64,000 nt of DNA. Source: Tetradesmus obliquus. Lineage: Eukaryota; Chlorophyta; Chlorophyceae; Sphaeropleales; Scenedesmaceae. Shown piece by piece: positions 547 through 62,143 of this stretch. The position numbers and the translations under genes are program-made. Every line of letters begins with the position of its first letter. Position 1 is the stretch's first letter. The DNA lies in the NCBI GenBank assembly GCA_030272155.1, contig CP126194.1, positions 2,223,501 to 2,287,500 on the forward strand, given 5' to 3'. The notes beneath the pieces are model-generated. The model saw only the letters and a list, made by a program, of their open reading frames with translations, was not told the DNA's origin and did no database searches.

Positions 547-619
547 AGCATGGATTTTGCTGCGGTTATTGATGTTACATGCCCTGGTTTGGAGTGGTAT
601 TTGTTCAGCTTTGAGCTGT

Positions 620-11093: not shown

Positions 11094-14000
11094 TCATAAC
11101 GCTTTGCTCAACGTGCGAGAGTCCAACTGCGCAAACAACTCAGAAATGACGTCATTTGAAAGCAAAATCCCAGCTGGGTCAGTCAACCGCACGCTGACAT
11201 CTTTCCCTCGCTGCAGTCGATCACACAGCTGCATGTATGCTGCATCAGCATCCACTTCAACAGTGCCACTACTACCACTCAAGCCTGGTACAAGTGCATC
11301 TCTAGCTTGCTGCACGTCTTGTGCATCACATGGCAGCACCTGCATCAGGCCCTGCTGCAGGAAGCCTTGGATTGTTGGGAGGAGCGCAGCCACTGTCTCC
11401 TGCCCATACTGCTGCTGCAGCTGCTGCAGCGCCAAGCCATCACTCAGCCTCAAACTCAGCATGATCACATCCAGCAGCTGCTCCTCCTGCAAGCAGCAGC
11501 ACGCACACAACAGCAGCAGCAGCCATACACAATGTCAACAATTGTGCGCTACAGCAAAATGTCTGCACGGTTGCTGGAATTGGAATTGGACAGATGCCAT
11601 GCACCAATACACCTGTGGTGGGACAAACATGTGGTGACACAAGCATGCAGTAGTACGCAACGTGCATTGATGCCTGCTCGATGAACCCAAAAGCTTGCAT
11701 TCCGACACGACCTTGAAGCCGTATCCCACCTTGCTTTCGACCGGCAGCTCTGCAGCAGGGCAGCCAGCGCCGCCCTGCACAAAGCGCTGCACCCATGCCT
11801 CATACTCCTGCATGCCACGCGGGCGGCTGAAGCGGCGCCCCCGCGTGTACGAGGCGGCTCCCAGGCCAAACGCATAGTAGGGCTGGCACTGCCAGTACAC
11901 CTGGTTGTGCTTGCTGCGATGACCTGGCTTGGCATAGTTGCTGATCTGCAGGCAGCACCATTGCAGCACCAGCAGCACCAGCAGCAGTAATAGCAGTGAC
12001 AGCAGTTTAGGCCGATCAATACAACAAAGTTTGCTGGTGAACTGAACATTTCACGGCCTGAACACAGTAGCAGCTAGCACTGGGTTGTGATAATCAAAAC
12101 AGGCTGCCATGCTCCACAGTGATAGTCACAGTGCACCTCATAATGCTCATATCCCGCGGCTGTGAGGGTGGCTGATGCTGCTTCAAACATGGCCACTGCC
12201 TCAGGCTCCTTGGGCAAGGGGCTGCCCTCGCCGCTGAACCAGCGCGCAAACGGCGTGCCCTCCTCAACCTGGCAGCAGCAGCACAGAGGCAGTACAGCAA
12301 GAAGGTCATGGCAGCCAGCCGGTGATCTTGCCATCAAGACAGGTTCTGCACATGCCTAGGCACCGGTGGGCAGCGCTTTGGCGACATCTCTGGTGCTAGC
12401 AGCACGCACAGGTTTTGACAAAGACGTTGCCGCAGCAGCGAACACAAGACCACAGGCTGCCCAGAAGCACTGCGCAGACCGCACCTCGTTGAGCGCTCCT
12501 TGCTTGATAGGCACCCACGCACACAAGATGGATGGTACGTCAGCAGCGACAAAATGCCAGCTTCACAGCTGTGGTGTCAGCTTCCAACTGCAGCAACAGC
12601 TCCAAGCGGCAGCATCTCACCTGCAAGTCATACACCGATATGTGATCAGGCCCTGCCGCCACTGCCTGCTGCACGCTGTGCTGCCAGCCCTGCAGGCTGA
12701 GGCCAGGCAGGCCTGAGATCAAGTCCAGGCTCCAGCTAGGCAGCCCAGCAGCAGTGACAGCTTCTATGGCTGCATACACATCAGCCAGGCTGTGGCTGCG
12801 CCCGCAGGCCTTCAGCAGATCCTGCAAGGCAGCAAGCAGGCAAAGAGGCATCACATCAAGCACCCATAGCAGGGCCACAGAAAGGGGGAGAGTGTGCTGC
12901 AGCTGCCCTGCTGCCTAATGATGACCAGGGTCGTCTGTGTGGCAGCTGCCGTCTGCTTGGGCCTATGTCTTCAACACCTCACATAGTTTGGCTCCCGTCA
13001 TCTTTCCGCATATACACAATCATTCAATCACCCTTGCACAGATGGGCTGCAGAAGCTGCGGCCGCTGCTGCAAGTCGGCTGCTGCATCATCACAGAAGGA
13101 CGTTTCAAGGCTCAACCCCAGACCCCCACCTCTTGGAAGCTCTGCATGCTCATGCTGATCATGCTGCTGCTTCCTGTTGCTGCTTGCTGCCATAGTTCCT
13201 GCTGCTGCTGCTGCTGCTGCTGCTGCCATCCATCCCCCAACAACCTTGAGCCGCACCCTCACCTCTTGGAGGCTCTGCACGCCCATGCTGACCTGCAGAT
13301 CCTGCTGCTGCTGCTGCCTCTGCGGTTTTCAAAACTATTTCTAGGTCATCCCCACACCCTCACCTCCTGAAAACTCTGCACGCCCATGCTAACTCGTGTA
13401 ACGCCCAGCGCCTTGTACTGCAGCAGCCGCTGCAGGTCAAACGTGCCGGGGTCTGCCTCAATGGACACCTCTGCGCCCGCTGCGATGCCAAACTGCTGCT
13501 GCAGAGCTGACAGAATGGACTCCAGCAGCTGGGGAGGCACCAGGGATGGCGTCTTCGGTTGCAGGAGTTTGCAGGAAAGGTTGCAGCACAGGTCGGTGAG
13601 CCAAGAGCAACAGCAAGGAAGGCAGCTGGATACATGCGTGCTCGGCACAGGCGCGACGCTGGTGTGTCAGCCAATTTCACGAAACACAGCAGACAGTGTC
13701 CTGCAAGCGCTGCTGCTGCCTTTGCTGCCACTGCTGCTGTCAAAAAACTTCCAAACGCTCACCCCTCCACCAAAGGACACAGTTGTGAGCGGCGCATCAA
13801 TCAAAGACCTTGTGGCTTTCACTTCTGCACACACCAAGTCGACATATGCCTGCATCCTGTCCTGTGTTCCTGCAAGCAACAGCGCCAGGAACGTGTATGA
13901 AACCCCTCAGCTGGTAAGCTAAGTTGTTGGGACAAGTCACTGTCATCAGGTGGATGGTATGTGTGCAGGCTTGCTGGCTGTGTCTGCTTTTTGTGTTGCT

Positions 14001-14749: not shown

Positions 14750-18233
<3,484 letters not shown>

Positions 18234-42604: not shown

Positions 42605-44937
42605 ATGGCGCTGTATCTGAAGCAGGAGGCGGGAGGGGAGGAGGGGAACATCCGCGGCCTCGTGGAGAACTGTGCACACAATGACGACATCACGCCACTT
42701 GTTCGGCTGCTGTTTGAGGCACAGTCGCTGGCAGACTCGCCATCCATCATAGCAGGTGCGTGCATGTGTCATAAAACAACCCTGGCTGTGCTAGCAGCTG
42801 CAGCAGCGGCTGCATGACGTGTAGGGATGGATTGCCAGAGTTGCAGGAGCGTACACACACCCGCTGTGGCAGCATCTGCTGGCTGCGGATGGGCTTTGCG
42901 CAAAGCACGAAGCATCCTTGCACCGCTGCAGGCAGATGGTGTTCCTGCAAGTTGAGTGCACACACAACAGCCAGGCTGGGGTACTGGATTGATCATATGA
43001 TGCTGCGGCACCTGCCAGCAGCACAGTTCCTGCAAGTTAGCAAGCTGCGCTGCCTGCGGTGCATGAGCAGTAGTGTCTTCCTGCAGGAGCGCATGCGAGC
43101 TGCCTGTGCATGTATGCTCAACGGCGGTCCTTGTCATTGCTGTGGCTGTGCGCATGAGGCACACAACATGCAACATCGGCAGCAAATGAACAGCCTTGTG
43201 CTATTAATCGCCGCTTGTGTGAAACAGCGTGCTGTGCATTTTGCGGTTCTGCTGTGCAGCGGATGGTCAACAGATGGTGAGCATCATCTGCAGTGCGCTG
43301 CGGGCAGTGGCAGCAGACCAGGGAGCAGCCATCGACGACGTGTGCCACTCCAACGCAACAGCCATTGCACAGACAGTGGCAGAGCTTGAGCACATGCAGT
43401 CAACCGTGGAAGATGTGAAAGCGTCGCTGATGGGTGCCAACCAAACCATGCAGGTGAGGGAGGCTGGGTGCGGCTGTCCTGCAGAGTTTGTTCGGCTGAT
43501 GGCAGGTGTGGGAAGCACTGTGCACGCTTGCAGGAGGCATGTGGGTGTGGTTAGCAGGGCGAGGGGGAAGGTGCAGTGCATGACATTACGCGGGCGGGTG
43601 GTGCGGATGAGCCCTGGCATCAGCAAGGTTGCGAGCTGTCATGCAGCAGCAATTGTGCAGGTTCAGGTGCTTCTTGTTGAAGGCATGTAGCAGACACGCC
43701 GGGCGTATGCCCCGGACGACATGCGGCTATCGCGTATAGTGCTGGGCTGTCGTCGGTGTGTATCCCGTGTGAATATGCAGCTACTGCCACCTCTCAATCA
43801 CATACACCATGCGCACGATTGGCATGCTCCTGTGCCCCTGCCCTGCCATTGCCCACTCCTGCTGCTGCCGCTGCTGCTGCTACCTTCCGCGCAGCAAGTC
43901 GGGTCCAACCTTGTGACCAACGTACAGAATGTGAACAGGCTCGCAGAGGTGCAGGACAACCTGCAGCAGGCTGCCGCTGCTGTGCGTGCAGCGCAGGGTG
44001 TGCTTGAGCAGTGCATGGCTGCTGGGCAGCTGATCAATGAGCACCAGCTGTACCCGGCTCTGTGCATGCTGGATAAGATCCGGCGCAAACACCTGGGTGA
44101 GCTGTGTCACTGCATGCTTCAGATACGCATGTCAGGCAGTGGCTCTGCCCATGTTGCGTGACTGGAGATGTGCTGCTGACAGTAGGTTGCCCAAGCTCTT
44201 TGCAGCGTTCTAGCAAGTATTTGGGTGGTGGGAGCAGCGTGGGTGGTGGGCTAGACATAACACGCACAGCTGCGTGTGGTCAGCTTCGGAGCAGCAGGGT
44301 GTTCAGGGGCAGCATGCTGCACAGCAGATGCCTGGGGTGTTACTTTTGCATGCTTGTTGTTATGCTTCAGCACATGTTTTGCGCGTAACGTGCTGCGTAA
44401 TTGGAGGTTTAACAACACAGGGAGGTGCAGCAGTGGTGCTCTCATTACTGACTGTCTCTCTGCTGTACGCGTGCATCAAGTAAATAGTAACGTCAAGCAT
44501 GCTCTTTCATTTGCTGCTGCCTTTGCCTTCTACTGTCCTGATTTTCGTTCATGCAGCGTCCCTCCTCAGCATGCTGTCAAACAAGGGGGCGCCCCTCATA
44601 CCTAGCCGCCGCATCAGCAGCAGCAGTAGCAGCAGACACCACGTATCTGCTGCGCAGCAACAGCAGCAGCTGCAGGCGCAGCGTGCAGCGGCGGCTGCAT
44701 CTGCTGCTGCTGCCATGAAGCGGCTGAGTGGGCGGGACGTGGAGCATCTGCAGCAGCTGCATGCCTTTTTCAGCGGCCTGGTTGATGACATGGCTGCAGC
44801 TGTGCAGCGGCTGGCGCTGCAAGGGTTCAACCAATGGCTGGTGAGGCAAACAGGCAGGGATGGTGGTACCTTCAAGGTGCCTCCAGCACGCGTTCAGCTG
44901 GGGTGTAGCAAGAGCTCCGCTGCCTGTGTTGGTGCCA

Positions 44938-44971
<34 letters not shown>

Positions 44972-47900
44972 GCAAAGTCAAATAGTGTCTCTGTCTGCTG
45001 TCTCAACAGCAGCGCTTCATTCATGCTCGTCGCATTGCCTTGGATTGCATCCCCTAAGCAGCTGCAAGTGCGCAAGCACCAAGTAGTCTACATTCATTGT
45101 GAACGACTGCTGCAATCTCACTAACGAAGCATCTAAGTCTGCAACAATGCACTGCCTTACAACTTGCACGCTGCAACCCTGCTGCAAAACTACACCCCAG
45201 GTGTCCATGCGCGCGTGTGCGCGTGACGTGGGGCTGCTGGCCATCCAGGCAGCGCTTGTGGAGCGCTGCAGGGAGGAGGACTTGGGCGCTGAGCGCAAGG
45301 CACTGCTGGCGGCACTGGCTGCGCCAGGTGGCCGCAGCGTTCGCGACATTGCTGCAGGTGATGCATGCTGCTTGGATGCATGGCTGCAGGTGATGCATGC
45401 TGCTTGGATGCAGGTAATGCATTTGATGCATGCTGCTTGGATGCATTGCTGCAGGTGATGCATGCTGCTTGGATGCAATGCTGGGTGCTGCTGGTGGGAA
45501 CAGTAGTAGGTCTGCAGCAGCGGCTTGCTGCCTGGGTGTTTGCCAGTTGCATTGGCCAGCCAGGAAGGGTCCCAGCCTCTAACTTTGCAGCAAGCCTAGT
45601 TCGAGCACAGATGTACTGCAGCTTATTCACGTCAACTGGCCTGGGTCTTGTCACTGCTGTTGACAAGCTGCTACCATGAGACTGCTGTTGGTGTATCACT
45701 AGTTGTCAAAATGCTGTCACCTGCAATGGCTGCCTGCTGCCACATGCAGAGCTAGCCAAGTCGCCCTTCCGCCAAGACCTGCTAAAAGAGGCCAGCCCTG
45801 ATGCAGACAAGCAGCAGCAGGCGGTGCAGCAAGACAATAACAACAACGGCGGCAGCAGCAGCAGTGCCGCAGGCTTCAGCAGTGTGACGGGCAGCGGCAG
45901 CGGCAGCTTTACATCTGCTGATGCTTCCAGCCTCCGGGAGCTGCTCAAGTGAGAGCTGCGGCGGCTGGCGAAGAAACAGCTGCTGCACTGCATTTGGCGC
46001 ATGTCTGGCAGAACTAGTGGGAATAGATAGACACTGCTTGTGTGCGCATCCCGGCGGCGAACAAGTTTATTTGTGCATACTTTACAAGCACGTATGTGAA
46101 GGGAAGTGCTGACACAACCTTGCTGGGGTTCACACAAGTGGCGGTCAAAGCGCATTCGACCACGCGGCAATGCTCCTGCTGCTGCTGCTGCTGCTGTGCA
46201 GGCGGCCTAGCCGCAAGTGGGTGCCTGCAGCAGCCCCGCTGGCTGAGGTGTCATCGCTGCCGGGGCAGCTGCCCGACCTGGAGGAGCTCTTCCCTGGGGA
46301 GCCCCAGCGGGCGATACATGCACTGGTGCAGCAGCAGAAGCAGCGGCGCAGCAGCAGCGTTGCAGTGTCAGGTGTGTGTGTGTGCGCGGCCAGCTGGCAA
46401 GACGTGCTGAGGGTGTTAGTTGCGTGCCGCTTGTGCTGTTTGTTGTTGCTGCTGGCAACAGGAGATGCCATAGCTGCATTGTTGTGTTGATTACTCAGGG
46501 AGCTCCTAGAAACATGTTCACGTCCGCCCAAGCTGTTGACCTTCAACAGCAAAAAACAATCAAAAAACCTGCATGCTGCCTGCACGCCCACCCCCACCTG
46601 GCCAATCGTTCTTTCCCCTGCAGGCCGCTCCAGCACTCAGCGGCAGCAGCAGCAGCAGGAGCCGCCGCAGCGTCAGCCCATCTACAGCCTGCTGGACGTG
46701 GACATGGCTGGCTGCCATGCTGCTGTGCACGTGGCCAAGAGCCTCGGCTGCCTGGACGCATTCAGGCAGCACTACCTGGACCAGCGCCGGCTGCAGGTGT
46801 CGGCAGACCTGCAGCCGCCGCAGGACTTTTTGGAGTCGCACAGGGCCTACCTGGCGCAGGTTGGTGCGGCAAATGCAGGGTGTCTGTGGCAGTCGAAATC
46901 AGTTGGCGAAGCTGGGTGCAGGCTGTGTGCAATGCTAGAGTGGCCCGGAAGTTGCCCGATCGTGCCAAGTCCCTGCTCAGCTGCCGCCATGCCAGCTCTG
47001 TGAGCTGCCTGTGACCGGAGATGTAGTGCTGACTGTTTTGAGCGCACAGCTGGGTCAGCGCTGACTGTACGCGTGCTGACAAGTGTCGGCTCCGCGCAAC
47101 GGTAAGCGCACTGTGCAGGTGGCTGGCTTCTTCGTCATCGAGTCGTACGTGCAGCGCGTCACTGACGGCCTGGTGGGCCTGCAGAGGGTGCCGCGCTGTG
47201 TGTGCTGCCTTGATGAGCTGCCAATGAAGCGGCGCTGCGCAAAGCCTCTGTATATGAGCAGGTGGCTGGCTGCTCACCCCGTGCCACTTATGTGCATGCT
47301 GCCTATATGGGGAACCATCACCAATCAACAACCGTTTGCTCTGCACAACCGGCGTGCAGGTGGCTGGCTTCTTTGTCATCGAGTCATACGTGCAGCGCGT
47401 CACTGACGGCCTGGTCGGCCCTGCCGAGGGTGCTGCACTGTGGGCTGGCGCGCAGCGCTCCCTCAAGGCCACGCTGGAGGCTGCCTTTGATCAGCTGGGC
47501 ACTGCCAGCCTCATGCTGATGGTGAAGGACTTTGTGCTGCTGGTGTGCGTGGCGCTGGAGCGAGCTGGCTACCAGGTGCGTGGCTGAGGGGGCTGCTACG
47601 AGGCAAGGTATTGCTGCATGGCTGGTGCGTGGCCCACTCGGTGGAGTGCATGGACTGTATGCTCTACGCTGGAGTTGCGCGCGGACCTGCAGTGCTGCAG
47701 CGCACGGCACCGTGCTGCGCAGCGCAGCCAGCATTGCAATGAGCTCACCTGCTGTCGCTGCTCACCCTTCCGTCCCCATCCCTAATCCCTGTTCTGCTGC
47801 TGCCACTGGCATATGCATGCTACCTTTTTTATATGTACTGTATTCAGGTCGCACCGGTCATCGAGCTGCTGCAGGCCACGCAGGCACGCTACCATGAGCT

Positions 47901-50900
47901 GCTGTCAGCGCAGCTGCAGGGCCAGGTGGCTGCTGTGGTTGAGGCAGATGTGCTGAGTGAGCTGGAGATACGCAGTGAGGCGCAGCATGCGGCCACAGTG
48001 GCGGAGTATGGCCTGCCTTGGCAGCTGGAGGGCGCAGGTGGGTGCGGCTGAGGCTGGGGTCCTGCAGCAGCTGCATGCTTGTGGTCTGCCAAGCTACAGC
48101 GCAGTGCAAGGCGCATGCAGAAGCTGTGCGGTCGCGTGAACCGTGCTGCATCAACGACTGTAACTATCGAAGCACTGCAGGCTAGTGATTCTGTGTTGCA
48201 TTCTGCTACGTTACTGCGCAACACAAACGTCTCCCCATACATCTTGCAGCTGCGTGAAGCACCTCCCTCCCCTTCTTAGCTTTCCCGACACACCGCCTCA
48301 CCGTGCGGATGACCCTTCAGCACATCCCCTCACCTGACTACGCTTGCTCTTTCATTGTTCCCGCAAGCTTCACCCACTGCCACTCCTCCTTTGCACTGCC
48401 GCCCCCCAGGCACGGGCCGCCGCGTGCAGCTGAGCGCCAGCGGCGTGCCGCCACTGCCGTACATTGCGCCCTTCACCTGCTGCGTGCCGGAGGTGCTGAG
48501 CCTGGTGCGACGCTATGTCATTGACAGCCTGGCCTACCTGAGGGGGCTGCACAGCCCCCAGGAGCTGCTGCCTGCGGTGCTGCACCAGCGGGACAGGATG
48601 CTGGGCAAGGTGAGGCGGGTGATGCTGGGTGGCTTGTTTCAGGCTGGTTAGGGGTGTAAGCATAAGAATGCTTGTTACATCAGGCTGGTTTTGTGTTACA
48701 AGGGTGCTGCCTGCAGTGCTGCACCAGCGGGACCGTATGTTGGGCAAGGTGGGGGCAGAGGGTTTGTTTTGGGCGGTGGTGACGTTGCAATGTGGGTGTT
48801 GCTGCAGTAAAGGCATCTCACGTGCGTGTTTCCCGCAAGTGCGTGCCACAAACAAAACGCCATCACAACATGACATCCTTCAGGCAAGTTATGTTTTGCA
48901 CAAGTGCGTGAAGGTGGCGGCTAACGCATGCTGTGCACAACTGCTGCTGTACACCTGCAGGTGCTTGTGGAGGTGTTGTCGCTCAAGGCGAGCTTCGTGG
49001 CGAATGAGGAGATGCTGCGTGAGTGCATGAAGGTGCCGGCTAACGCATGCTGTGCACAACTGCTGTACATCTCTGCCGCGGTACACCTGCAGGTGCTTGT
49101 GGAGGTGTTGTCGCTCAAGGCGCGCTCCGTGGCGAGTGAGGAGATGCTGCGTGAGTGCATGAAGGTGGCTGCCAATGCCTGGGCGCTCTGCGCGGCCCTG
49201 GACGGCCTCGATGATTGGACCATACAGCAGGCACGGCCTGAGTGGGCGGCACCTCAGGTGTGTGGGGTGGGCTGTGAGGGCTGTAGATAGGCTTGAAGGG
49301 CTTGTGTTGTGGATGGTGCAGGCCACTTGGGTGAAAAGCTGATGAGCCTGGCGAGTGAAGCAGTAGTAAAGGGGCATTGCCTGAGGAACCCAGGAACCCA
49401 GGAACCCAGGAAGCTTGCCTCATCTGTGTCTTGCCTCATCTGTGTCTTGCCTCATCTGCGTCTTGCCTCATCTGTGTCTTGCCTCATCTGTGTCTTGCCT
49501 CATCTGTGTCTTGCCTCATCTGCGTCTTGCCTCATCTGTGTCTTGCCTCATCTGTGTCTTGCCTCATCTGTGTCTTGCCTCATCTGTGTCTTGCCTCATC
49601 TGCGTCTTGCCTCATCTGTGTCTTGCCTCATCTGCGTCTTGCCTCATCTGTGTCTTGCCTCATCTGTGTCTTGCCTCATCTGTGTCTTGCCTCATCTGTG
49701 TCTTGCCTCATCTGTGTCTTGCCTCATCTGTGTCTTGCCTCATCTGTGTCTTGCCTCATCTGTGTCTTGCCTCATCTGTGTTTTGCCTCATCTGTGTCTT
49801 GCCTCATCTGTGTCTTGCCTCATCTGTGTCTTGCCTCATCTGCGTCTTGCCTCATCTGTGTCTTGCCTCATCTGTGTCTTGCCTCATCTGTGTCTTGCCT
49901 CATCTGTGTCTTGCCTCATCTGTGTCTTGCCTCATCTGTGTCTTGCCTCATCTGTGTCTTGCCTCATCTGTGTCTTGCCTCATCTGCGTCTTGCCTCATC
50001 TGTGTCTTGCCTCATCTGTGTCTTGCCTCATCTGTGTCTTGCCTCATCTGTGTCTTGCCTCATCTGCGTCTTGCCTCATCTGTGTCTTGCCTCATCTGCG
50101 TCTTGCCTCATCTGTGTCTTGCCTCATCTGTGTCTTGCCTCATCTGTGTCTTGCCTCATCTGTGTCTTGCCTCATCTGTGTCTTGCCTCATCTGTGTCTT
50201 GCCTCATCTGTGTCTTGCCTCATCTGTGTTTTGCCTCATCTGTGTCTTGCCTCATCTGTGTCTTGCCTCATCTGTGCAAGCCTACATGGAGTGTTGCATA
50301 GTGGTAGTGGTTGTACTGTGGAGCTCCTGCGTGTGGTGTATGAACGCTGCGGATTTTGCCTGCGCTGCTGCTTGTCTCTGTGCTGCAGGTGGCAGCTCCA
50401 GCGCCAGACAGCAGCCAGGGCAGCAGCAGGGCTGGCCTGTCAGCTGCAGCAGCAGCGGCAGCCAAGCTGGCTCGCGCACGCAACCGCAAGGCGGCTGTTG
50501 CCAGCGGTGCACTCACCAACACTGTGCAGGCAGCACTGAGGGCGCTGCAGGTAGGTGCTGGCAGTTGCAGAATAGTGAGGCATGGTTTAGGGTTCTTCTT
50601 TCAGATGGGCTAGGGTGCATACTGGCCAGCACACCACTGTCTTCTTTGATGCAACAATAGACGTTGAACTACGACAACTGCAAGCATGGTGCACCTGTGA
50701 GGGGGCCTACCATGCTGAAAAGCCACATCAGCTGCAACTGGTGGCTCCTTCATGTCCTCCCCAAAGTGTATGACATCTCACAGCAGCAGCACCTGCAGTG
50801 GCTCACAGCAACGGCGCACACGCGCAACACTGCCACGCAGGATGCCTAGGCCCACAACAGCATCTTCTGCAGCTGATGACAGCAGCTGCACACTTGCACT

Positions 50901-53518
50901 TTCACAAACACACACTGCACTCCCGCAGGACGCGTCTGAGCGTGATGTGCTGCGGAGCCTTACGGGGCGCATTGAGCAGCTGCTGGAGGGCAGCCGCAAG
51001 GGCGACTGGTGCCCGGGCGAGGCGCTGCCGGCCAGCCAGAGCGGCTGGGTTGATGCGCTGCTGTCATACCTGCAGGTGAGATGCAGTTGCATGAGCTGTA
51101 GTTGCGTCAAGGTGCTCTGGTTGCTCTTTGCTGTCTGTTTCGTGTTGGCAGCGGCTGGGTGGACGCACTGCTGTCCTACGCGCAGGAGAATAGTATGAGC
51201 TGCAGCTGCACATGTTGCTTATGCTGTGTCGTGCTTTGTTGTGGGATGTGTTGGGCAGTGCGGCTGCGTGGGCGCGCTGACGTCATAACTCAAGTGAGCT
51301 GCAGAGGCACAACAAGGTGCAGCGGCGCTGGCTGCTCTTTGCGGCTAAAATAGATTTGACCTTGCGTTGGCAGTGGTGTGGGCGGCGGTGCGGCTTGCGC
51401 CCCCGGCTGGGAGCACTTTGGTTGGTGCATGTGCGCTGTGCTGAGGCAGGCACAGGCATTGTGCAGCATAGGCTTGGTGATGTTTAGTGCTCTTTTCAGC
51501 CACTTAAAACTAGTGTCTGACGGTCACTGCATTCAGGAGGGACTTTGTAAGACAAATGAAATGCTGTGCAATGCACTGTGTCGCCTCCTCATTCCTCCTC
51601 CTGCAGGACCTTGTGTGCGCTCAGGCCATCACGCCCTTTCGTCTTTTTCTTGCGTCCTTGCAGGACACGCTTGACGCCAGGGCTGAAACTGCTGCCGCGC
51701 TTCAGCGCGGTGTACCTCATACCTTTTTTGCACCCCATGATGTTACACACGTGTATCACAGCAGTCAGGGTGAACAGCAAAGGCTGTCGCTGCAACAGCA
51801 TGCAGTGCTCCACCATTTTGCCACCTCCCCCCCCCCCCAGCAGCAGCAAGCACGATCCTCCTCTCCCTGCCTCTCGCTGCTGCAGGAGACGTTTGATGCC
51901 GGGCTGAAGCTGCTGCCGCGCTTCAGCGTGGTGCACCTCATGCGCCTGGCGCTGCGCGCGACAGCCACTGCCGCCATGCGTGCGTTTGGGCCGGAGGGCG
52001 TCAAGGGCTTCAACCTGTATGCTGTGCAGAAACTGTCCATCAATGTGGCCACAATAGAGCGCTTCGCTGGCAGGTCGGTGGCTGCAACAGCAGCATGGGG
52101 CGGTGCGCCATGTGCTTCGTGGGTGGTGCTGTGGCGTTGCGTATAAAGGCATGTGTAGGTTCGCATGTGCGCAGCTACTTTGTGAGCTGTCTGCAGGAGC
52201 TGGATATGTGTGCTGTTCGAGAAACAACACTGCTGTTAGCTGTCAAGCTACGTAAGCGGGGTTTCCTGCCGCATCAGTCGACCAGCGCCAGAATGCAATC
52301 GAAGCACACCGCCGCACACATGTGCCTGGCACCTGGCTGGCTGTGATGCAGCACCCTGCTGCCGTTTCTGTCTTCGGTACATGAATGTGTTCTACAATGC
52401 TGATGCTGATGCTGCTGCGGCTGCTGCAGGTGGGGTGTTGCCAGCCTGGCTGATGAGCTGGCGGAGCCCAACCAGCTGTGCCGGCTGCTGCTGTCAAGCA
52501 AGGTGCGCACAGCCCGGTGCAGGCGCCGTCAGCGGCGGATGCAGTGTGCGTGCAGTCGATGCAGTGTGCGCGCAGTGGATGCAGTGTGCGTGCACTTGAT
52601 GCAGCGTGCGCGCAGTGGATGCAGTGTGCGTGCACTTGATGCAGCGTGCGCGCAGTGGATGCAGTGTGCGTGCACTTGATGCAGCGTGCGTGCACTTGAT
52701 GCAGCGTGCGCGCAGTGGATGCAGTGTGCGTGCACTTGATGCAGCGTGCGTGCAGTGGATGCAGTGTGCGTGCACTTGATGCAGTGTGCGTGCACTTGAT
52801 GCAGCGTGCGTGCAGTGGATGCAGCGTGTGCTGGTTTGCCCTGGGCTCGCTGGCTGTGTGCGAGCGGTGCAATTCAATGAAAGCCACAGTGCAGGGACAG
52901 CAGCAGCTACAATGAACAAAGGGTGTATTTCGCCTTCCTGCGAGCACTGACGGCGCAAGGTGCAAGCGTGTTGCACACCCCAACCTTAATCCTGTGAACA
53001 CAAACATCACATTAGCAAGACCAGCTGTGGCCGCGCATTGCAACGTCTGCCCTCAACTCCGTAACAGCATCGTATATAACAACATTGCATGCACTGCAGC
53101 TGGAGGACATCTTGTAGCCGCAGCTGCGCCGGTTGCAGCCGAGCAACAGCCGGAGTTGATTTGCTTGCAGCGCTGCAAGGGAAGCTAGCTCCTGCTCCAG
53201 CCAGGTGTCCATCCTTGCGCAGCTGCCCATAACACACCACTGCAATCCTTCACTTCTCTTGTCCCCTGGCCCCTGCTTTCAACACTGCATGCACTGCAGC
53301 TGGAGGACATCTTGGAGCCGCAGCTGCGCCGGCAGCGCTATTCGGCATTGGAGCTGTCAGCAGTGGCGCTGGCCCTGGACAAGTACCGCGAGCTGCCGCA
53401 GCAGGCGAAGCGGCGGCCCGAGTGGCCCACCAAAAAGGCGGTTGATGCAGTGGCGAAGCAGCTGCGGGCGCAGATGGTGTTGGGTGCGGCTGGCATGCGT
53501 GGCTTGGATGATGCGTGA
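42605..53518 (+). CDS. SEC15: Exocyst complex subunit SEC15 (EXOC6)
   Basis: Seventeen exons: 42605-42755, 43260-43453, 43895-44096, 44557-44840, 45201-45357, 45750-45948, 46202-46371, 46624-46859, 47360-47575, 47848-48037, 48410-48609, 49093-49257, 50389-50550, 50929-51075, 51886-52073, 52430-52502, 53300-53518. All phases join; about 1050 residues, longer than the ~790 of plants because of Gln/Ser inserts in exons 4, 6 and 13. SEC15 is the exocyst subunit that binds Rab GTPases to tether secretory vesicles. Family matches run in order: a coiled-coil N-terminus (NVNRLAEVQDNLQQA, LYPALCMLDKIRRKHL), FNQWL...CARDVGLLAI, PIYSLLDVDMAGCHAAVHVA, FRQHYLDQRRLQ, QDFLESHRAYLAQ, VAGFFVIESYVQRVTDGLVG, LMLMVKDFVLLVCVALERAG, PYIAPFTCCVPEV, and a C-terminus GFNLYAVQKLSINVATIERF then RYSALELSAVALALDKYRE. 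Exon 12 may start at 48961 instead, adding 44 residues. Confidence 0.9.
45346..45482 (+). repeat. Tandem copies of the SEC15 exon 5 donor region
   Basis: The end of exon 5 with its donor (gctgcag followed by gtgatg) begins a unit of about 30 bases rich in gatgcatgctgcttg. Four copies follow one another, several with gcaggtgatg or gcaggtaatg, so the intron starts with a row of possible donors. Confidence 0.8.
47119..47200 (+). repeat. Upstream partial copy of SEC15 exon 9
   Basis: A gtgcag acceptor followed by VAGFFVIESYVQRVTDGLVG repeats the start of exon 9 (47360) 241 bases earlier. The copy then diverges (LQRVPRC) and lacks the rest of the exon, so it is probably skipped. Confidence 0.8.
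48704..48752 (+). repeat. Intronic copy of the SEC15 exon 11 end
   Basis: The last ~45 bases of exon 11 (LPAVLHQRDRMLGK) and its donor recur about 140 bases downstream, with gtgggg where the true donor has gtgagg. Confidence 0.8.
48961..49092 (+). repeat. In-frame duplicate of SEC15 exon 12 start
   Basis: A 132-base tandem unit: VLVEVLSLKASFVANEEMLR at 48961 and VLVEVLSLKARSVASEEMLR at 49093, each behind acctgcag. The unit is 44 codons with no stop, so using the first acceptor lengthens the protein by 44 residues in frame. A third, partial unit (gaaggtggcggctaacgcatg) precedes it at about 48905-48960. Confidence 0.85.
49414..50277 (+). repeat. 16-bp minisatellite, about 54 copies
   Basis: The unit cttgcctcatctgtgt repeats head to tail with few changes, mainly gtgt to gcgt or gttt. 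It fills most of SEC15 intron 12. A short array of aggaaccc units sits just before it (49386-49412). All three plus frames are open because 16 is not a multiple of three and no frame of the unit has a stop; the encoded CLICVLPHL-type text is a by-product. Confidence 0.95.
51150..51185 (+). repeat. Intronic copy of the SEC15 exon 14 end
   Basis: The end of exon 14 (SGWVDALLSYLQ) recurs about 110 bases downstream as GWVDALLSYAQ, but its donor is changed (caggag instead of caggtg). Confidence 0.8.
51664..51721 (+). repeat. Upstream partial copy of SEC15 exon 15
   Basis: A cag acceptor followed by a diverged copy of the start of exon 15 (ETFDAGLKLLPRFSVVHLM, true start 51886) lies about 222 bases upstream. 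One extra base near its start shifts the frame. Confidence 0.78.
52538..52830 (+). repeat. 20-bp minisatellite, about 14 copies
   Basis: Units of the type gatgcagtgtgcgtgcactt alternate with a gcgcgcagtg variant, giving a 40-base higher-order period. The array begins about 35 bases after the donor of SEC15 exon 16 and fills the first part of that intron. Confidence 0.92.
53081..53138 (+). repeat. Upstream partial copy of the last SEC15 exon
   Basis: gcatgcactgcag followed by LEDIL, then a stop in place of Glu, then PQLRR repeats the start of exon 17 (53300) almost exactly 200 bases upstream. The stop makes it unusable as coding exon in this frame. Confidence 0.85.
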
Positions 53519-53677
53519 GGCGCGGCGGGTGGCTTGTCAGACGCACCAGCTGCTGTGTCCCTTTCACAGCAGCTGCCGGGAACTGCGCTGTACCCGCATT
53601 GCGCATGACATGCCTGTTGCGTTGTGCTGTGCTGTGTTCCTGGCACATTATTGGACGACAGCTACAGACATACTGGA

Positions 53678-53778
53678 ATGGCCCACCAACTTTTTGAAAA
53701 GGCGGTTGATGCAGTGGCAAAGCAGCTGCGTGCGCAGATGGTGTCAGGTGCAGCTGGCATGCGCGGCTTGGACGATGC
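53678..53778 (+). repeat. Copy of the SEC15 coding end beyond the stop codon
   Basis: About 100 bases matching the end of exon 17, from EWPTKKAVDAVAKQLRAQM to the GLDDA-stop, recur 160 to 260 bases past the real stop. The same thing is seen after the ABC-F gene at the left edge. Confidence 0.85.
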
Positions 53779-55046
53779 GTGAGGCACTACGCGAGGCTGG
53801 TGTATTGCATTGCGTTGTGTTGTGTTTGTTGCATGTTGTTGGGCCGTACTCATGGTTATAGCCATACATACAGCGGGTGCAGCCGCTGCGCAGCATGCTG
53901 TTGTGTTGGTGCTCTTTCCGGAGCCAGTGGCACAGGCGCAGAGTATCTGCGCAAATCCGTTGCTTGGGCGCAAGCAGCTGCAGCTGCGCTATGCAGCAGC
54001 AGTGCAACTGAGACGGCGTTGGCCATCCAGCAGAGCCCCTGATGAGTCAGCAGGTGCAACAAACCACAACGCATGAGTCTTCATAGAAGGCATTGCGTGC
54101 TTTGTCTACCGACAGTGTATATGTTGCATGGCGGCCACAGGATGCGGTGCCTGGGCGGCACTGCTTGTGTGCAGCCAGGCTGTGCAACCACTGCCGCACA
54201 CGTGATGATTGGCACCGAGCATAACCGTCCTGACACAAGTGACGCAAAAGCACACATGATGCAGAGTTGGTGTGCCTGCTGCTGCGCAGGCCTGTGCACA
54301 GGCCTAGCTAGGGGCTTGCTTTGCACACCAGGCAACTGCAGCAACAGCCCAAAGTTATGCATTTACACTGCCTATGATTGCGGCTCAATGCGCCTGCCGG
54401 TTGTGTATGGCAGGCGCTGGTGTGGAGCGTTGTCAACGCTCATAGCAGCAGTGCTGCTATATGACGTAGTTGGCAACATGCTGGTGACATGATGTGGATA
54501 TCATTCGGCCACCACTGCCTGCAGCTGACAAGTCGAGACAGCCACAAGCGCCGCACATGTTATGTATGTGAAGCTTGTTTGCGCAGCACGGCAGCAGCAT
54601 GCATGCATGGTCTTGGAAATGATGCACGTACTGCACTACTGCAACACACCAGCTGCTGCAGCAGAGATGTACTATGCATCATGCGCTGTGCAGCGTGGAT
54701 GCATGTCACGTGCGCATATTATGTTGAGCAAGTGTGCCTGGCTGGCAGGCACGGCATACAGCCAGCTTACATCCAGCCAGCATGCATGCATGCCAGGATG
54801 CATCACAAGAATGCCTCACTTTCAGAATCACGCTGATGGGCCACAACCTGCGTGTAACGATACAGGCACAGCGATGCCGGCAAAGAAGGTGGGAGAGTGC
54901 ACCATGGTGCATGGCCATGCCTCCAAGATGGCTGCACAGTGTGCGCACAATGATGCCACATGCGCACAATGATTGCAAAGCATTCGTTCAGAATGAACTT
55001 GCTGTCGACCTGGCCGAGTCATCGAAACTGAATGACACATCTGCCA
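53779..55046. other. Intergenic region between convergent 3' ends
   Basis: SEC15 (plus) and NECAP (minus) converge here. tgcatgcatgc words are common. No exon supported. A plus-strand TGTAA at 54853-54857 could serve SEC15. Confidence 0.45.
54767..54771 (-). terminator. Possible TGTAA poly(A) signal for the NECAP gene
   Basis: The minus strand reads TGTAA about 275 bases after the NECAP stop codon. Confidence 0.25.
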
Positions 55047-55420
55047 TCAGTCAAACTTCGCCCAGTTTTCCTCGCTAGAAGCAACTGTCACTGCAGCTGG
55101 GGCGGGGGCGGCTGCTGCAGCTCCAGGACTCGATAGCACACCTGCAGGAGCAAGGAAATGCCTTAAAACTGTGTCATGATAGGTCTCCAATGGATCACAA
55201 CTACCAGAATTCATGCACAAGCTGTGAAGGAGTTGCATCATGTATTGCTGCAGTCTGGAACACAGGCAGAAGCATATGGACAAGGCATTATCAATCACTG
55301 TGTACAAATTCGTGCAGCGCAATGCCTGAGCGATGCTGGGGACCCATGTGCACGCACCTCCTGGATATGCTTGCTGCGGCACGGGCGGTGGCGGCAAAAT
55401 TGCCGGCGGCAGCAACCCCT

Positions 55421-55458
<38 letters not shown>

Positions 55459-56084
55459 TCCTTTTCATGCTCAGTGTAAATGCTTTAAATCACGGCTATA
55501 ATAACCTGCTGCAGGGAACTGGTTGTGGCAACCTTCAAAGCAAGATGGCAGCAGCACATGCGCTTGTGCACAGCCTTGGTCTCTCAAGTAGAGCTCTAGC
55601 ACCCCAACCGACGATACTTCCTGCCTCTGCAGTAGCCTGAGCACAAACTGCAGTGACCGTTACTCTGCCGACACAGCAGCAGCTGCAGGCCGCACGACTG
55701 CATGGCTGGTAGGATGCGGCTGCTGCTGCTGCCGCCGCCTGCAGGCACTGCACCAGCTGCAGGCCTCACCCACCTTGCTGCTGCCGCCACCGCCGCCGCT
55801 GCTGCTGCTGCCAACTGCAGGGCCTGGCAGCTGTGCTGTGAAGGAGCCTGAGCCGCCAGCAGCACGTGACAGAAAGCCCCCAGGCTTGCTGGCCCCATGG
55901 TGCACATTGATGCTGTAGCGGCAGCGGTAACAGAACAAATGATAATGCAGTCGTAAGTTGCTGCTGAGGAAATCTATGACCATAGCATTGCATCAAGAGG
56001 CTTAGGGCGCTCTTCACAAGCAAATGTCCTGTTGCTGCACACTTCCTGTACTGCATGCTGCTGGCTCGCCCACCACACCAATCC

Positions 56085-56122
<38 letters not shown>

Positions 56123-58209
56123 AGCCACTCCCTCAACCCTTTCGCCATCTAATCTGCCACATCAAGCATCGCTCTTGCTGCTGCCGCTGTTCTCTGTGAG
56201 CTGCTAATGCTGCTCCTGCAGCTCACCGTATAGTCTGCCCTTCTCTCAAACTCAAGTCCCCTGGGTCTCTGTACAAAGATGCCAAAGCAGGATCCATGGC
56301 AACAGGCCGTGCTGCTGCTGCTGCACTGCTGCTGCCCCCACTGCTGCTGCTGCTTCCTGCTGCAAGTGCTGCTGCTGGAGGCCCCTGTGCAAGGATCTTG
56401 TCTCTTTGGCATTGCCTTACATGGTCGTCCTGCACGTCATACGAGAGAAGGGTTAAAAAGCGTAACTAACGATCAAAGTGCCGCGCACTCAACCACCAAA
56501 CCACAACTACATGCGCCGGTGATCCTTACCCAGAAACACATGCACACATCACCAGGCCATTGCTGACCCGCATATCAGCCGCCGTTCCAGCCACTGCTGC
56601 TGCTGCAGCGGCGACGGCGGCTCCTGATCCTGCTGCCGCTCTGCTGCTGCCGCTACTATTGCTTGCCAGTGCTCCGTTGATTGATCGAAGGCCTCGCCCT
56701 GCTCAGTAAACCTAGCCCCAGGAAGCCGCTGATAGCTGCTGCTGCTGCTGCTGCTGCTGCTGCCCCTGCCGCCACTGCTGCTGCCCCCGCCCGCCTCACC
56801 AGTGCCGCGTTGAAGTCGAAGGCTTCGCCCCGCTCAGCAAACCCCAGCCCCAGGAAGGCGTGGCGGCGAGTTGCTGGGTCTTCCACACGCAGCACGAAAT
56901 TGCTGCGGGGCACACAGCAATGATGCATGAAAGAGTTCGGCACAATGCTGCTGAGCAGCTTGAGAATATACTGCACACAGCAAGCACACATATGTGCTCA
57001 AAGCATGAGGCACGAGGCGCTTTGGTGCTCCTTCAGCGCAGCACATACATGCTGCGGGGCGTACGGCAAGGAATTCCACGCATTGAGGCAATGCATCAGA
57101 CGCTGCGGGGGGCAGGCAGGCCATGCCAGACTGTTCTGTTATGTAGGAGGAAAGCAAATCACAATGGCAATATGGTGTCAGCAGGCGACAAAGATTGAAC
57201 CTAGGCGATGGTTGTTGAGTCTCGTCATACGGCTTAGATGGTGCAGCACAAAGAGAGGTGCAGGTGGCTTGGCGGAATGCGCTGCAGGTGTTGTGGTGCT
57301 GCTGCTGCACGGTAGTGACAGCTGGCGGCAGGAGGACGGGGTCAACTCAGCTGATGTGTCAGCACTCCTGCTCCTGCTGCTGCTGCTCCTCTTTTGCTGG
57401 AGGGTGACATCATTTGTGCAAATTGTATCTGTGCCAGTGACATGCTCACCGGCTGCTATCGACTGCCGGCTCAATGGCTACTGCTTGCGTCTCCGGCGTA
57501 AAAGGGCACACTGCAAACAGCTCGCCCCTGCAAGCAGCATACATGCACAAACACAGCCGTGATCTTCTTGAATGTGTGAGGAACAACTGCTGCTGAGCGC
57601 TGTCCAAGTAGTGCCTGCTTGAACAGCACCCAGCTGGCACAAGTCAGGTGATGCGCCTATGATACGCAGCGATGGTGTACACAGTCGTGTCTAAGAGGCT
57701 GCTGCTGCTGCTGCTGCTACTGCCACCGCTGCTGGTGCAGAGACAGCATGTGATTGGTGGCTGCTGCTGGTGGTACATAGACACCAGGTTATGGCGGCGG
57801 CTGCTGCTGCTGCTGCCGCCGCAGATGCGGATGCAGTTGCTCACGTGCTGCCATCCTCCAGCCGCACTTCTGCATAAGAGCCCCTAGCAAGCACACGCAG
57901 CCGCCCTGCCATCATCCGCAACAGCAGCAGCAGAGTTGCATCAGCAGCGTGACGAGGACTATGGCAAGCGTTGCTGAGACCATCACTTGGTAGCACAGCT
58001 ACACAGTCGAGGGTCTTGATCATCTAGACGCAAGCAGCAGCGCGACGCAGCCGAAGCAGCTGCTGCATCACCAAATGCACACCTGCAAAGATCTGATCAG
58101 CAACCCTCCAGTTGCCTGAAATGTGTCCTGTTGAGGCAGGTCGTGGTGGTATTCTGTACAGCTTGACCTCCCTGTTGATGTGCAGTGTGCGCTCTATCTC
58201 CTCATCCAT
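55047..58209 (-). CDS. NECAP-like clathrin adaptor-ear-binding protein
   Basis: Seven exons (plus coordinates): 58209-58083, 57905-57845, 57527-57450, 56902-56800, 56429-56227, 55912-55770, 55141-55047; all phases join, giving 269 residues. NECAP proteins bind the ear of AP adaptors on clathrin-coated vesicles through a PH-like fold. Matches in order: [104 protein letters not shown], then [17 protein letters not shown]. The ordered domain ends near residue 150; poly-Ser, Gly and Ala linkers follow and the protein ends EENWAKFD, where W-x-x-F-like AP-binding motifs are typical. Exon 4 has a decayed tandem copy in the intron after it. Confidence 0.88.
56684..56740 (-). repeat. Intronic copy of NECAP exon 4
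   Basis: On the minus strand a diverged copy of [14 protein letters not shown] follows exon 4 by about 60-110 bases (reads [15 protein letters not shown] after small changes). A CTG/CAG run separates the two. Confidence 0.75.
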
Positions 58210-58909
58210 AACAGCTGCTGCTGTGTTGCTGCAGGAGCAGCGAGAGAGCTGCTGCTGAGCTGCAGTTGCTCGGCTGCGTTGTAAGGTTTGATTATGTATA
58301 TGTCTCGCACGTAAGTGCAGCTCAGTCGGTGGGAGGGCGCCCGCACGAGGATGGACACGCCCAAACTAGATGCAATGCCAAGCAGCAAGCAGCAGCAGCA
58401 GCAGCGAGATATGTTTGCTTGCAGTGCTGCCTTGTCAACAATTACAGACTTGCATTATGCGTTAGTTTGTGCTTTCGAACACTGCTGGAAGGGTGTGAGC
58501 TACATTTGGGGCAGACAACTGCCTTCATCCGTGTCCTCGTCAGAAAGAACCCTTGCAACTCAGCTGTTACTCACGCTGCGTCGATCCGTGTTTGCCAGTG
58601 ACACGGCTCTGTGTTTGAGCTATCGTGCTGGATCAAACAACTCGCACTTGGATATCCCTGCCGTGTCGTGGCCCGTCTCGGAGACAAATCGTCAGACCAC
58701 AGTGGAGCTAGAGACAAAGCTGAGAGCGGTGCCTTTGACAACTTAATGTTTGGCTGCACCTACAGGCGTGCCTTGCTCAGGCGTCCCTCGGTGCCAGTGC
58801 AGTGTCTGTCCAGGAGAAGCAGCTTTGCAGGGCTAACCGGCGCAGCGCTGCTGACCATTGCAGCGGCAGTCAGCATCGGTGAGCAACGTGCTCGGAGCAT
58901 CTAGGACGA
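58210..58909. promoter_or_regulatory. Divergent upstream region of NECAP and the isoaspartyl methyltransferase
   Basis: Both promoters must lie here. At 58746-58904 an ATG-started frame codes a basic, Ser/Ala-rich hydrophobic peptide (RRALLRRPSVPVQCLSRRSS) that could be a 5' exon with a targeting peptide, ending at gtgagc (58880). Its phase does not join the downstream frame at the acceptor I can see. Confidence 0.4.
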
Positions 58910-61900
58910 ATGTTCCGTTGCTTTGCCCAGCTACAGCACAGGCAAAAGCCCCAGCCCCAAAGCAGCCCAGGCAGCAGCAGCAGTAGCAGCGGCAGCAGTG
59001 CCAGGACTAGGAGGCGACGCAGCAACAGCAAAGCAGTGTCGCTAGAGTCCAATACAAAAGGTCTGTTGAAGCGCCCTGTGCACCAGCCACCCACTCTGCA
59101 GCCACCCCCACTGCCGCCTGATCCAGGTGCGGGCTCAGCACCACAGCAGCAGCAGCAAATCAGGCAGGCGCAGGCGCAGCAGCAGCTGCAGCAGGCAGCA
59201 CTACAGCACCAGAAGCAGCAGACCGCACAGATGGGCACAGTCAGCAAGCCCCTGGGGGGTGCAAGGACCAGCCAGGATGAGCTGGTGGATTATCTGATCC
59301 GCAGCAAGCTGGTCAAGAGTGCCAGAGTGGCGGATGCGCTGCGGGCAGTGGACAGGGGCAAGTACGTGAACACCGCGTATGCCTCGCGCACTGATGCCTA
59401 CCAGGTGCGTTGCTGAGCTGGTGTGTTACCAGATAGATGGGTGCGTGGAGGGGTCCATGCCATTTGCAGGGATGGCAGCAGGTGCTAAAGCTGTCTCCAG
59501 ATGCGCGTTTTGTGGCTTTGAAAGCTTAAAAAGCTGAGGTGTCCATCCAATGTATCCGCACAGCGTGCATGTGATAATTGCGCTGCTGGGGCATCAACAC
59601 CCCCGAGCAATGATGGCAAAGTGTACAGGCGACTTTGACATCTGTGCAACAGCGCTACTGGCTGAGTCCTGGGGGGACGCAGTGCACGCGCGGCACTGCG
59701 CAGAACGTGCATGCAGTGTCTGTGATGCTCATGCCTACCACACCACTGCATGTATCATCACGCAGGACCACCCGCTGGCCATCGGCGAGGGCCCGACCAT
59801 CAGCGCTGCATGTTTCAGGCATTGCCAGTGTGTGCCAGGCCGTCTGAGATTGATGTGATGCTGCGCCGCATTCCTGTCTGGTGCAGGATCACCTGCTGGC
59901 CATCGGGGAGGGCCAGGCCGCTTGACCCACTGCAGCGCTGCATGCCTGCGTCGCTGCAAGCCATCTGATGTAATGCTGCGCCGCATATTTGTTATCACGC
60001 AGGACCACCCGCTGGCCATTGGTGAGGGCCAGACTATCAGCGCGCCCCACATGCACGCCATCTGCCTGTCTGATGAGACGCCTATGTCCACCCTGCATTT
60101 CTGTTTCATTGCAGGACCACCCACTGGCCATTGGCGAGGGCCAGACCATCAGCGCGCCCCACATGCACGCCATCTGCTTGGAGCTGCTGGAGCCGCACCT
60201 GACACCCGGGGCACGCGTGCTGGACGTGGGCTCAGGTGCGGCAGCCCTCGAGCCTATATGCTGTTTGTGTGTTGCATGGTTGCAGCTGCTTTTGTTGTGT
60301 GCCTGGAGCTGCTGGAGCCGCACCTGACACCAGGGGCACGCGCGCTGGACGTGGGCTCAGGTGCGTGGCTTGTGGGCGTAGCGTGGTTTGTGTTTGTAGT
60401 GTGGTGTTGTGAGCACAGCGAGTAGCTGCAGCGTGGTTGGTGTCTGCATGTTTGCGCATAACACGCACATGGTGTGCGTGTGGTGGCTTGCAAATGCTTG
60501 CAGCAGGAGTGGTGCTGTGTCATGCTCGGGCGTGCCAATGTGCGCTGGGCTGCAGGCTTGAGGGTTCAACAGCCAAACCGATCCTGCTACATGCTTGAGC
60601 ATTGTGAGTGCAGCGCAGCACGCAGCAGCAGTAAGTGTCAGTGTCCACATGTAGCAGGCGCTGTGGGCACCACAGCACACCCGCTGGCTGGCTTGCTGGC
60701 CAACCTGTGGTGTTCATGTACCTCCCTCACATACTCTAGCCTGCTGTCGTGCCTGCTGCTGCTGCTGCTGCTGTTGTTTTGCAGGCTCCGGCTACCTGGC
60801 TGCAGCGATGGCCAAGATAGTGGCACCGGACGGCTTCGTGCTAGGAGTGGACAAGGTGTGTGTGCAGCTGCAGGGACTGCTGCAGGGACTGCAGATGCGT
60901 GCATGCATTTCCAAGCGTCAGGCGCTGCGCAGCGCTGCGGTGCCTCCGCTTGCCTTGCCCTGCAATCGTCACACATTGTACGCTGTCCTGTGCTGCTGCT
61001 CATCTCGCGCCTGCCCTGCTGCCAGCTGGTGCGGCAGCTGGTGCTGCAGCGCTGCCTTCGCCTGCCACACCACGATCACTTCATGTGCACCGTCGTTTGT
61101 GCCGCCAGCTGGTGCCGGAGCTGGTGCTGCAGCACTGCAGTCCGCATACACTTACCTCTCAACCATTGCATCATGTGATTGTTCTTTTGTGTGGCTGCAG
61201 GTGCCGGAGCTGGTGGTGCGCTCGCGCGCGTCGCTGCAGGCTGCCAACCCTGAGCTGCTGGCAGCGCAAGGAGGCCATGAACTGCTGCGCATCACACACG
61301 GCAACGCTCTGTCAGGTGCGCTGCTGCCCGGGGTATCTGTGTAATGAAGGCATGAAAGAGCATACGCTCAGCACAAGCAGATTTGCCTGCTGCTGCTCAT
61401 CATGCGCGGCAACACGCTGTAAGCTAGGGTCCAGGTTGCTGGCGAACCCTCTGAGCCCAGGGGCCCGAGAATATCGCTCTTGAACTGATACTTTGGCACC
61501 ACGAAGCATCCCTGCTGCTGCTTTGTGCACTCTATGGCTATACGTAACTGGTCACCAACTGTCACTGCCCACTTGCTGTTGCTGCTGCTGCTGCCGCATT
61601 GCTTCTGCTGCTGTCTCTCACTCGCCGCGCTGCAGACATGCTGGCGTCTGAGCCGCCGTTTGCGGCCATCCATGTGGGCGCTGCCGCTGATGAGATGCAC
61701 CAGGTGCTGCTGGACAAACTGGCTCCAGGCGGGCGCATGGTCATCCCTGTGGGGCCGCACTACTCCTATCAGGTGCGAGCACATCATTCTAAGCTTTAGT
61801 TGGTTAACGTGTACACATAATGGGATCGTGCAGGAATCGACTCAACATGGGCAGTTGGTGGTGTGATGTAAACGACACCAGCAGCCGCCCTGAGTGCTCA

Positions 61901-62143
61901 TGTGCTCTTTGTGCTGCCAGCGCCTCGTGACTCAGCAGCACTCCCCTGCTCACAAAGCATATTACAGAGCTACTGCCGCTGCCGCTGCCGCCAATCATCA
62001 CTGCTGCTTTTGCTGCCGATGTGCAGGTGCTGATGGCTGTGGACAAGGACGCTGCCGGCCATGTGACAACGCAGGCGCTCATGGATGTAGGCTATGTGCC
62101 GCTGACAAGACCCTCCGAGTATGAGGACGGCAGCCTCTTGTGA
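58910..62143 (+). CDS. Protein-L-isoaspartate O-methyltransferase
   Basis: Six exons, 58910-59404, 60115-60235, 60785-60855, 61201-61315, 61636-61772 and 62027-62143, join in phase to give 351 residues. The enzyme uses S-adenosylmethionine to methylate isoaspartyl residues, starting repair of aged proteins. A Ser/Arg/Gln-rich N-terminal extension (~residues 1-115, possible targeting) precedes [34 protein letters not shown], then [16 protein letters not shown] (the family's substrate-site motif), [17 protein letters not shown] (SAM-binding), [45 protein letters not shown] and a C-terminus [14 protein letters not shown]. Conserved-core length fits the family. Exon 2 is the last and only full copy of a four-fold duplicated segment. 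Confidence 0.9.
59766..60360 (+). repeat. Ladder of partial copies around methyltransferase exon 2
   Basis: The exon 2 start (gaccacccgctggccat, behind gcag) occurs at 59766, 59887, 60003 and, in the full exon, 60115, spaced 121, 116 and 112 bases. The copy at 60003 reaches as far as PHMHAICL before diverging. The exon's second half with its donor ([13 protein letters not shown] to the gtgcg) recurs at 60304-60360. So the exon has three partial upstream copies and one partial downstream copy. Confidence 0.88.

Follow-up and report, generated by a model that had tools for sequence, protein, structure and literature searches.

Local copies of exon and coding edges in the introns and 3' flanks of genes in a Tetradesmus obliquus genome window

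Why should the ends of exons recur in the neighbouring introns of several genes in one short piece of an algal genome, and are such copies introns in the making? The question is raised by a stretch of 64,000 nucleotides of the green alga Tetradesmus obliquus (GenBank assembly GCA_030272155.1, contig CP126194.1, positions 2,223,501 to 2,287,500 of the forward strand), referred to below as the window and numbered from its first nucleotide, in which a SEC15 gene, a methyltransferase gene and further genes carry such repeats. Exon-edge duplication in this sequence is real and dense. Its source is, on a modest balance of probability, recurrent local and largely tandem duplication across coding edges, a process that would lengthen introns and 3' flanks and would not make introns.

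Six genes were modelled from the sequence alone, using splice sites and reading frames. Pfam scans assigned Sec15_C to the SEC15 protein (E 3.7e-32), PCMT to the methyltransferase (E 6.1e-59), Radical_SAM to a HemW-like protein (E 5.7e-18) and DUF1681 to the product of a fourth gene (E 2.4e-47), which we take, following the name given in the first-pass annotation of this DNA, to be NECAP. The fifth gene, judging by its protein, presumably encodes an isopropylmalate dehydrogenase, and the sixth is the 3' end of an ABC-F gene. The six models comprise 39 introns, of which 39 are GT-AG, and 82 coding edges, and they read through without using the copies.

Coding edges and their copies

Copies in the adjoining non-coding DNA were compiled by hand for 15 of the 82 coding edges, a fraction that describes six genes in one window picked for the pattern and is not a genome rate. 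By gene, copies accompany 8 of 33 edges in SEC15, 4 of 11 in the methyltransferase gene, 1 of 3 in ABC-F, 1 of 10 in the HemW-like gene and 1 of 10 in NECAP, while the dehydrogenase gene has 0 of 15 together with one weak interior piece. An edge search, in which the 80 coding bases adjoining each edge served as the query, returned some match over the shuffle threshold for 25 of 67 edges; those near that threshold were counted as copies only if another comparison confirmed them, the exception being the end of methyltransferase exon 4, which was counted on the edge search alone.

The likeness is concentrated among neighbours. At a score of at least 42, 11 of 82 comparisons of an exon edge with its adjacent intron gave a match, as opposed to 0 of 1853 non-adjacent comparisons and 0 of 82 comparisons with the inverted intron; at a looser score of at least 34 the figures were 14 of 82 adjacent and 7 of 1853 non-adjacent. 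Furthermore, self-comparison of the window after masking of tandem and triplet repeats yielded, at a score of at least 33, 24 direct pairs spaced 50-300 bp apart and one at 300-600 bp, with no direct pairs at 600-2400 bp and no inverted pairs within 2.4 kb, while at a score of 30 three inverted pairs appeared at 300-2400 bp. Of the near direct pairs, 25 in all, 22 match the end of a coding block to its copy or one copy to another within such an array; the other three comprise two in a coding repeat region (4.3-4.6 kb) and one weak exon-interior piece (16.3 kb). The first-pass annotation had described exon edges repeated beside their exons and had proposed self-alignment as a check, and this comparison bears the description out. 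The copied edges (marked as source) and their copies lie as follows.

501-546, plus strand: ABC-F coding end with stop codon (source)
613-660, plus strand: ABC-F coding end, first copy, in the 3' flank
753-799, plus strand: ABC-F coding end, second copy, in the 3' flank
13364-13393, minus strand: HemW-like exon end at the donor (source)
13263-13292, minus strand: HemW-like exon end, first copy, in the intron
13130-13159, minus strand: HemW-like exon end, second copy, in the intron
45347-45483, plus strand: 32-bp tandem array of 4.2 copies over the SEC15 exon 5 donor
47360-47442, plus strand: SEC15 exon 9 start (source)
47113-47200, plus strand: SEC15 exon 9 start, copy with acceptor, in intron 8
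47258-47271, plus strand: SEC15 exon 9 start, short middle copy (only 14 bases common to three places)
48566-48609, plus strand: SEC15 exon 11 end (source)
48705-48748, plus strand: SEC15 exon 11 end, copy with donor, in intron 11
49093-49181, plus strand: SEC15 exon 12 start (source)
48903-49049, plus strand: SEC15 exon 12 start, tandem copy with intron flank, in intron 11
51040-51075, plus strand: SEC15 exon 14 end (source)
51150-51185, plus strand: SEC15 exon 14 end, first copy, in intron 14
51254-51294, plus strand: SEC15 exon 14 end, second copy, in intron 14
51886-51941, plus strand: SEC15 exon 15 start (source)
51664-51722, plus strand: SEC15 exon 15 start, copy in intron 14
53280-53332, plus strand: SEC15 exon 17 start with 20 intron bases (source)
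53080-53132, plus strand: SEC15 exon 17 start, copy with intron flank, in intron 16
53433-53518, plus strand: SEC15 coding end with stop codon (source)
53697-53782, plus strand: SEC15 coding end, copy in the 3' flank
56800-56857, minus strand: NECAP exon 4 end (source)
56667-56724, minus strand: NECAP exon 4 end, copy in intron 4
60115-60235, plus strand: methyltransferase exon 2 (source for both ends)
59766-59806, plus strand: methyltransferase exon 2 start, copy 1, in intron 1
59887-59924, plus strand: methyltransferase exon 2 start, copy 2, in intron 1
60003-60068, plus strand: methyltransferase exon 2 start, copy 3, in intron 1
60300-60360, plus strand: methyltransferase exon 2 end, copy with donor, in intron 2
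61017-61130, plus strand: methyltransferase exon 4 start, two weak copies, in intron 3
61375-61423, plus strand: methyltransferase exon 4 end, weak copy in intron 4

All cases named in the first-pass annotation were recovered, i.e., SEC15 exons 5, 9, 11, 12, 14, 15 and 17, methyltransferase exon 2, NECAP exon 4, and the HemW-like and ABC-F genes. Its placement of the copies in introns holds for most of them. Exceptions are the two copies of the ABC-F end and the copy 3' of SEC15 exon 17, which lie past the stop codon; at these two edges it is a stop codon that has been copied, into the 3' flank. In addition, SEC15 exon 17 and methyltransferase exon 2 are flanked by copies on both sides, and methyltransferase exon 4 has weaker ones on either side.

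Clear matches reach the coding edge: copies on the acceptor side lie upstream and repeat the exon start, and those on the donor or stop side lie downstream and repeat the exon end. They hold one exon end only, and no copy of a whole exon with both splice sites was found among them. The coding portion of the match spans 30-89 nt (13 pairs). Among the copied splice sites, GT or AG is kept in 11 of 15 and lost in four, and the splice site is copied along with intron flank in part of the copies only. All copies are direct, and the spacing between neighbours is 83-264 bp with the sole exception of the 32-bp array.

Tandem structure and decay

If a copy and its source arose by tandem duplication, the spacer between them is expected to resemble the flank beyond the copy. 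Eight of 17 pairs show this likeness at p<0.05, at steps of 92-140 bp, and an additional pair is tandem with overlap. These results support the view of local direct duplication that is often tandem. Three or four copies, the exon's own included, are present at the HemW-like, ABC-F, SEC15 exon 14, SEC15 exon 9 and methyltransferase exon 2 edges, and the most distant copy in the last of these arrays lies 349 bp from the exon. At SEC15 intron 8, the only positions in the window that hold one particular 14-base word are 47115, 47258 and 47356 (shuffling P 0.0004); this middle copy implies that the 241-bp spacing there represents two steps with a decayed copy between them. The copies are of mixed age, with coding identity to the nearest copy running from 37/52 to 32/33.

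Differences between copies and exons were examined in four arrays of two or three copies each, by sorting them into those in which one copy and those in which all copies differ from the exon; the sorting cannot separate exon changes from changes in the shared ancestor of the copies, and two ambiguous columns were excluded. Changes in single copies comprised 6 synonymous and 19 replacing ones, which is about the neutral share (p 0.66 against 0.30), while changes common to all copies comprised 8 synonymous and 0 replacing ones (Fisher p 0.0002 between the classes), the pattern to be expected of decaying copies next to a working exon. Some copies carry stop codons, indels or lost splice sites. 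For the nearest pairs, ABC-F excluded, 35 of 62 differences in 12 pairs were synonymous (P 0.05-0.46 for assumed shares of 0.45-0.55). As a separate observation, in 18 copy-exon pairs (ABC-F included) a T in the exon faced a C in the copy 26 times and the reverse 9 times, and an exon G faced a copy A 19 times and the reverse 10 times.

The process that we favour would thus run as follows. Short DNA straddling the end of a coding block, at either an exon border or a stop codon, would be duplicated locally, repeatedly and in direct orientation, mostly in tandem with steps of ~83-143 bp, the event itself probably being unequal exchange or template switching. The copy attached to the body of the exon would remain in use, and the other, in the intron or 3' flank, would decay as non-coding DNA. 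An edge already duplicated would often be duplicated anew, which would build up arrays of three or four copies, and the outcome would be longer introns and 3' flanks with spare, decaying splice sites and no new introns. Position, direction, spacing, neutral change in the multi-copy arrays, some copied flank and the lack of an AGGT signature (see below) are what the sequence shows of this reading; the event itself, the choice of the copy that is spliced and the cause of the preference for coding edges are the parts of it that we infer. Introns that bear copies are longer than the others (median 500 bp, n=11, versus 322 bp, n=28; p 0.003), a difference partly due to the added length of the copy itself.

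The coding-edge bias and competing explanations

Several results weigh against recurrent tandem duplication followed by neutral decay. Spacer likeness is not significant in 9 of 17 pairs, including all four that are spaced at least 200 bp apart. Random duplication with neutral decay, when simulated with a simple decay model in which linked copies count as independent, should place 52-61% of the detectable events entirely in non-coding DNA, but only one of 14 short non-coding matches (lags up to 300, five genes annotated) is such a duplication (53615, lag 188), the rest lying, by inspection, in edge arrays. Median lengths of similarity are 56 nt towards the coding DNA and 6 nt away from it, the coding side being the longer in 13 of 13 pairs, and in pair-matched simulations under the same simple assumptions the short non-coding side has a combined p of 0.0004 (lowest single pair 0.024). 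Furthermore, the synonymous share varies among pairs (P 0.003-0.013), and seven young pairs, chosen afterwards, together show 21 synonymous and 8 replacing differences, above expectation (P 0.0006-0.03).

Individual pairs fall on both sides of this variation. The synonymous-to-replacing ratios at SEC15 exon 9 (5:0), the SEC15 stop (6:1) and methyltransferase copy 3 (4:0) are like those of diverged working sequences, while those at SEC15 exon 12 (1:4), SEC15 exon 15 (2:5), NECAP (2:5) and methyltransferase exon 4 (2:6) are more like those of decayed sequence; SEC15 exon 12 is, moreover, consistent with plain tandem duplication (matched simulation 0.49). Selection of the copies as coding DNA was suspected from the young pairs with synonymous changes only, but the multi-copy arrays point to neutral decay, and the difference between pairs remains. 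Random tandem duplication as the full explanation is in turn disfavoured by the geometry and by the near lack of events confined to non-coding DNA. The pattern may combine old, simple tandem duplications in decay with a younger set of copies whose arrangement tracks coding similarity. Diverged alleles would be alike in coding DNA and not in introns, so that exchange between alleles, or the joining of haplotypes, could yield the geometry of the younger set, and either could explain the youngest copies. It is this coding-edge bias that is worth following.

In a diploid whose alleles share their exons but differ greatly in their introns, alleles could exchange out of register: with only the coding parts able to pair, an aborted or shifted exchange would leave extra coding edges beside exons. 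This is the best of the alternatives, yet we consider it unlikely. It would account for similarity that hugs the coding side, for the small number of duplications wholly in non-coding DNA and for the nearly all-synonymous young pairs (SEC15 exon 9, SEC15 stop and methyltransferase copy 3), and a Scenedesmus strain is reported to be likely diploid with alternate haplotype contigs (PMC7955037). Other young pairs are plainly neutral, however (SEC15 exons 12 and 15), some copies include intron flank, the SEC15 stop copy has a frame-breaking insertion, and diploidy with diverged alleles is an assumption for the source of this window. A long-running version, in which coding-guided duplication through misaligned exchange of diverged alleles keeps depositing coding-edge copies in the next intron or 3' flank, is doubtful; if true, introns would lengthen as by a ratchet and would gain spare splice sites.

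The same geometry would result if the assembled record joined two diverged haplotypes that resemble each other in coding DNA only, the coding edges being doubled where pieces overlap. In the methyltransferase gene (60003-60360), the exon has TTG at a codon that reads CTG in both copy 3 and the copy downstream of exon 2, and these two copies meet at TGCCTG, so that they look like one copy of the exon split by another. On the other side, the window contains 0 N, i.e., no undetermined bases, and neutrally decayed copies, arrays of up to four and lost splice sites need a long genomic history. An assembly mosaic is rather improbable; the decayed copies and the arrays with as many as four members speak against assembly as the sole explanation.

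The first-pass annotation had proposed that tandem duplication of AGGT-bearing coding DNA is giving birth to introns here, an explanation that has become highly improbable. In its favour are the presence of local coding-edge duplicates beside introns and a potato case in which a boundary-crossing duplication produced an intron (PMC4974935). The AGGT model predicts that the start of an intron copies the start of the next exon and that its end copies the end of the previous exon, but 0 of 39 introns exceeded the 99th percentile of mismatched pairs in either test. Intron flank was copied along, at p 0.026, in 4 of 15 cases (SEC15 exons 12 and 17, one HemW-like and one methyltransferase copy), with 8 of 15 at p >0.1 and a combined p of 0.0005, and an intron whose flank is carried in a copy must predate that copy. 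Copies are also located past two stop codons. The pattern is accordingly not supported as evidence for active intron birth, and the copies repeat existing boundaries, although it is plausible that edge copies may serve as raw material for new introns. A Sec15 protein pattern searched against genome contigs gave 253 matches and a methyltransferase pattern searched against viral contigs gave 5, none of either being a relative.

That the copies function under selection, as alternative exon ends or splice decoys, is scarcely credible. GT or AG is indeed kept in 11 of 15 copied splice sites and the copies of SEC15 exon 12 (132 nt, 48961-49092 with spacer, open) and exon 15 (222 nt) would add 44 and 74 residues in frame, but multi-copy arrays change neutrally, copies hold one exon edge and not both, post-stop copies cannot be splice decoys, and the read-through length is not a multiple of three in 5 of 7 examined.

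Related systems and other repeats

In tandem exon duplication, exon sequence is repeated beside the exon in direct orientation; here, by contrast, one exon end is copied and the copy is without a second splice site. Among the closest known cases is the RdRp gene of potato, in which tandem duplication over an intron-exon border led to use of a cryptic donor in the upstream copy and to splicing of a new intron, with proof from relatives and reads; a second, 83-bp duplication within an intron is also mentioned (PMC4974935). Both systems involve local tandem duplication across an intron-exon border with the acceptor and exon start copied, but in the T. obliquus window the edges concerned are numerous and belong to several genes, stop codons are among them, and no new intron is apparent. 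AGGT-type intron gain (Rogers, Hellsten; as outlined in PMC4974935 and PMC3443670) likewise entails local coding duplication in intron-bearing genes, whereas here the intron is older than the copy and in none of the 39 introns does either end repeat the exon edge on the far side.

Introners are described as one element spread through many genes (PMC9860276). They too alter introns in many genes of a genome, but each copy in the window matches its own adjoining exon. Introner-like repeats were considered and set aside, there being no likeness between genes at a score of at least 40 and no pair more than 600 bp apart among the matches listed at that score. No description of copied exon edges in introns of this algal group was found in the open-access literature, as judged by titles and the beginnings of abstracts.

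One table gives a mean intron length of 462 bp for Tetradesmus obliquus and of 230-302 bp for other Sphaeropleales (PMC5966456), and in view of these longer introns such a process could be sought directly. If genome-wide, it would amount to a means of intron growth linked to coding edges and would provide a stock of copied splice sites for alternative splicing or new introns, a step that is usually reconstructed from single cases.

Other repeats also occur in the window. SEC15 intron 12 is mostly filled by a 16-bp tandem array of ~54 copies with 97% matches (49414-50276), and SEC15 intron 16 contains a 20-bp tandem array of ~15 copies (52538-52828). A 21-bp tandem array of ~26 copies (4631-5183) lies in a long minus-strand open frame whose translation reads as a PSPDPAS-type repeat. 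Finally, part of the interior of exon 5 in the dehydrogenase-like gene has a weak repeat 135 bp upstream, in the intron (16344-16511, score 33.7), and this could be an older instance of what is seen at the coding edges.

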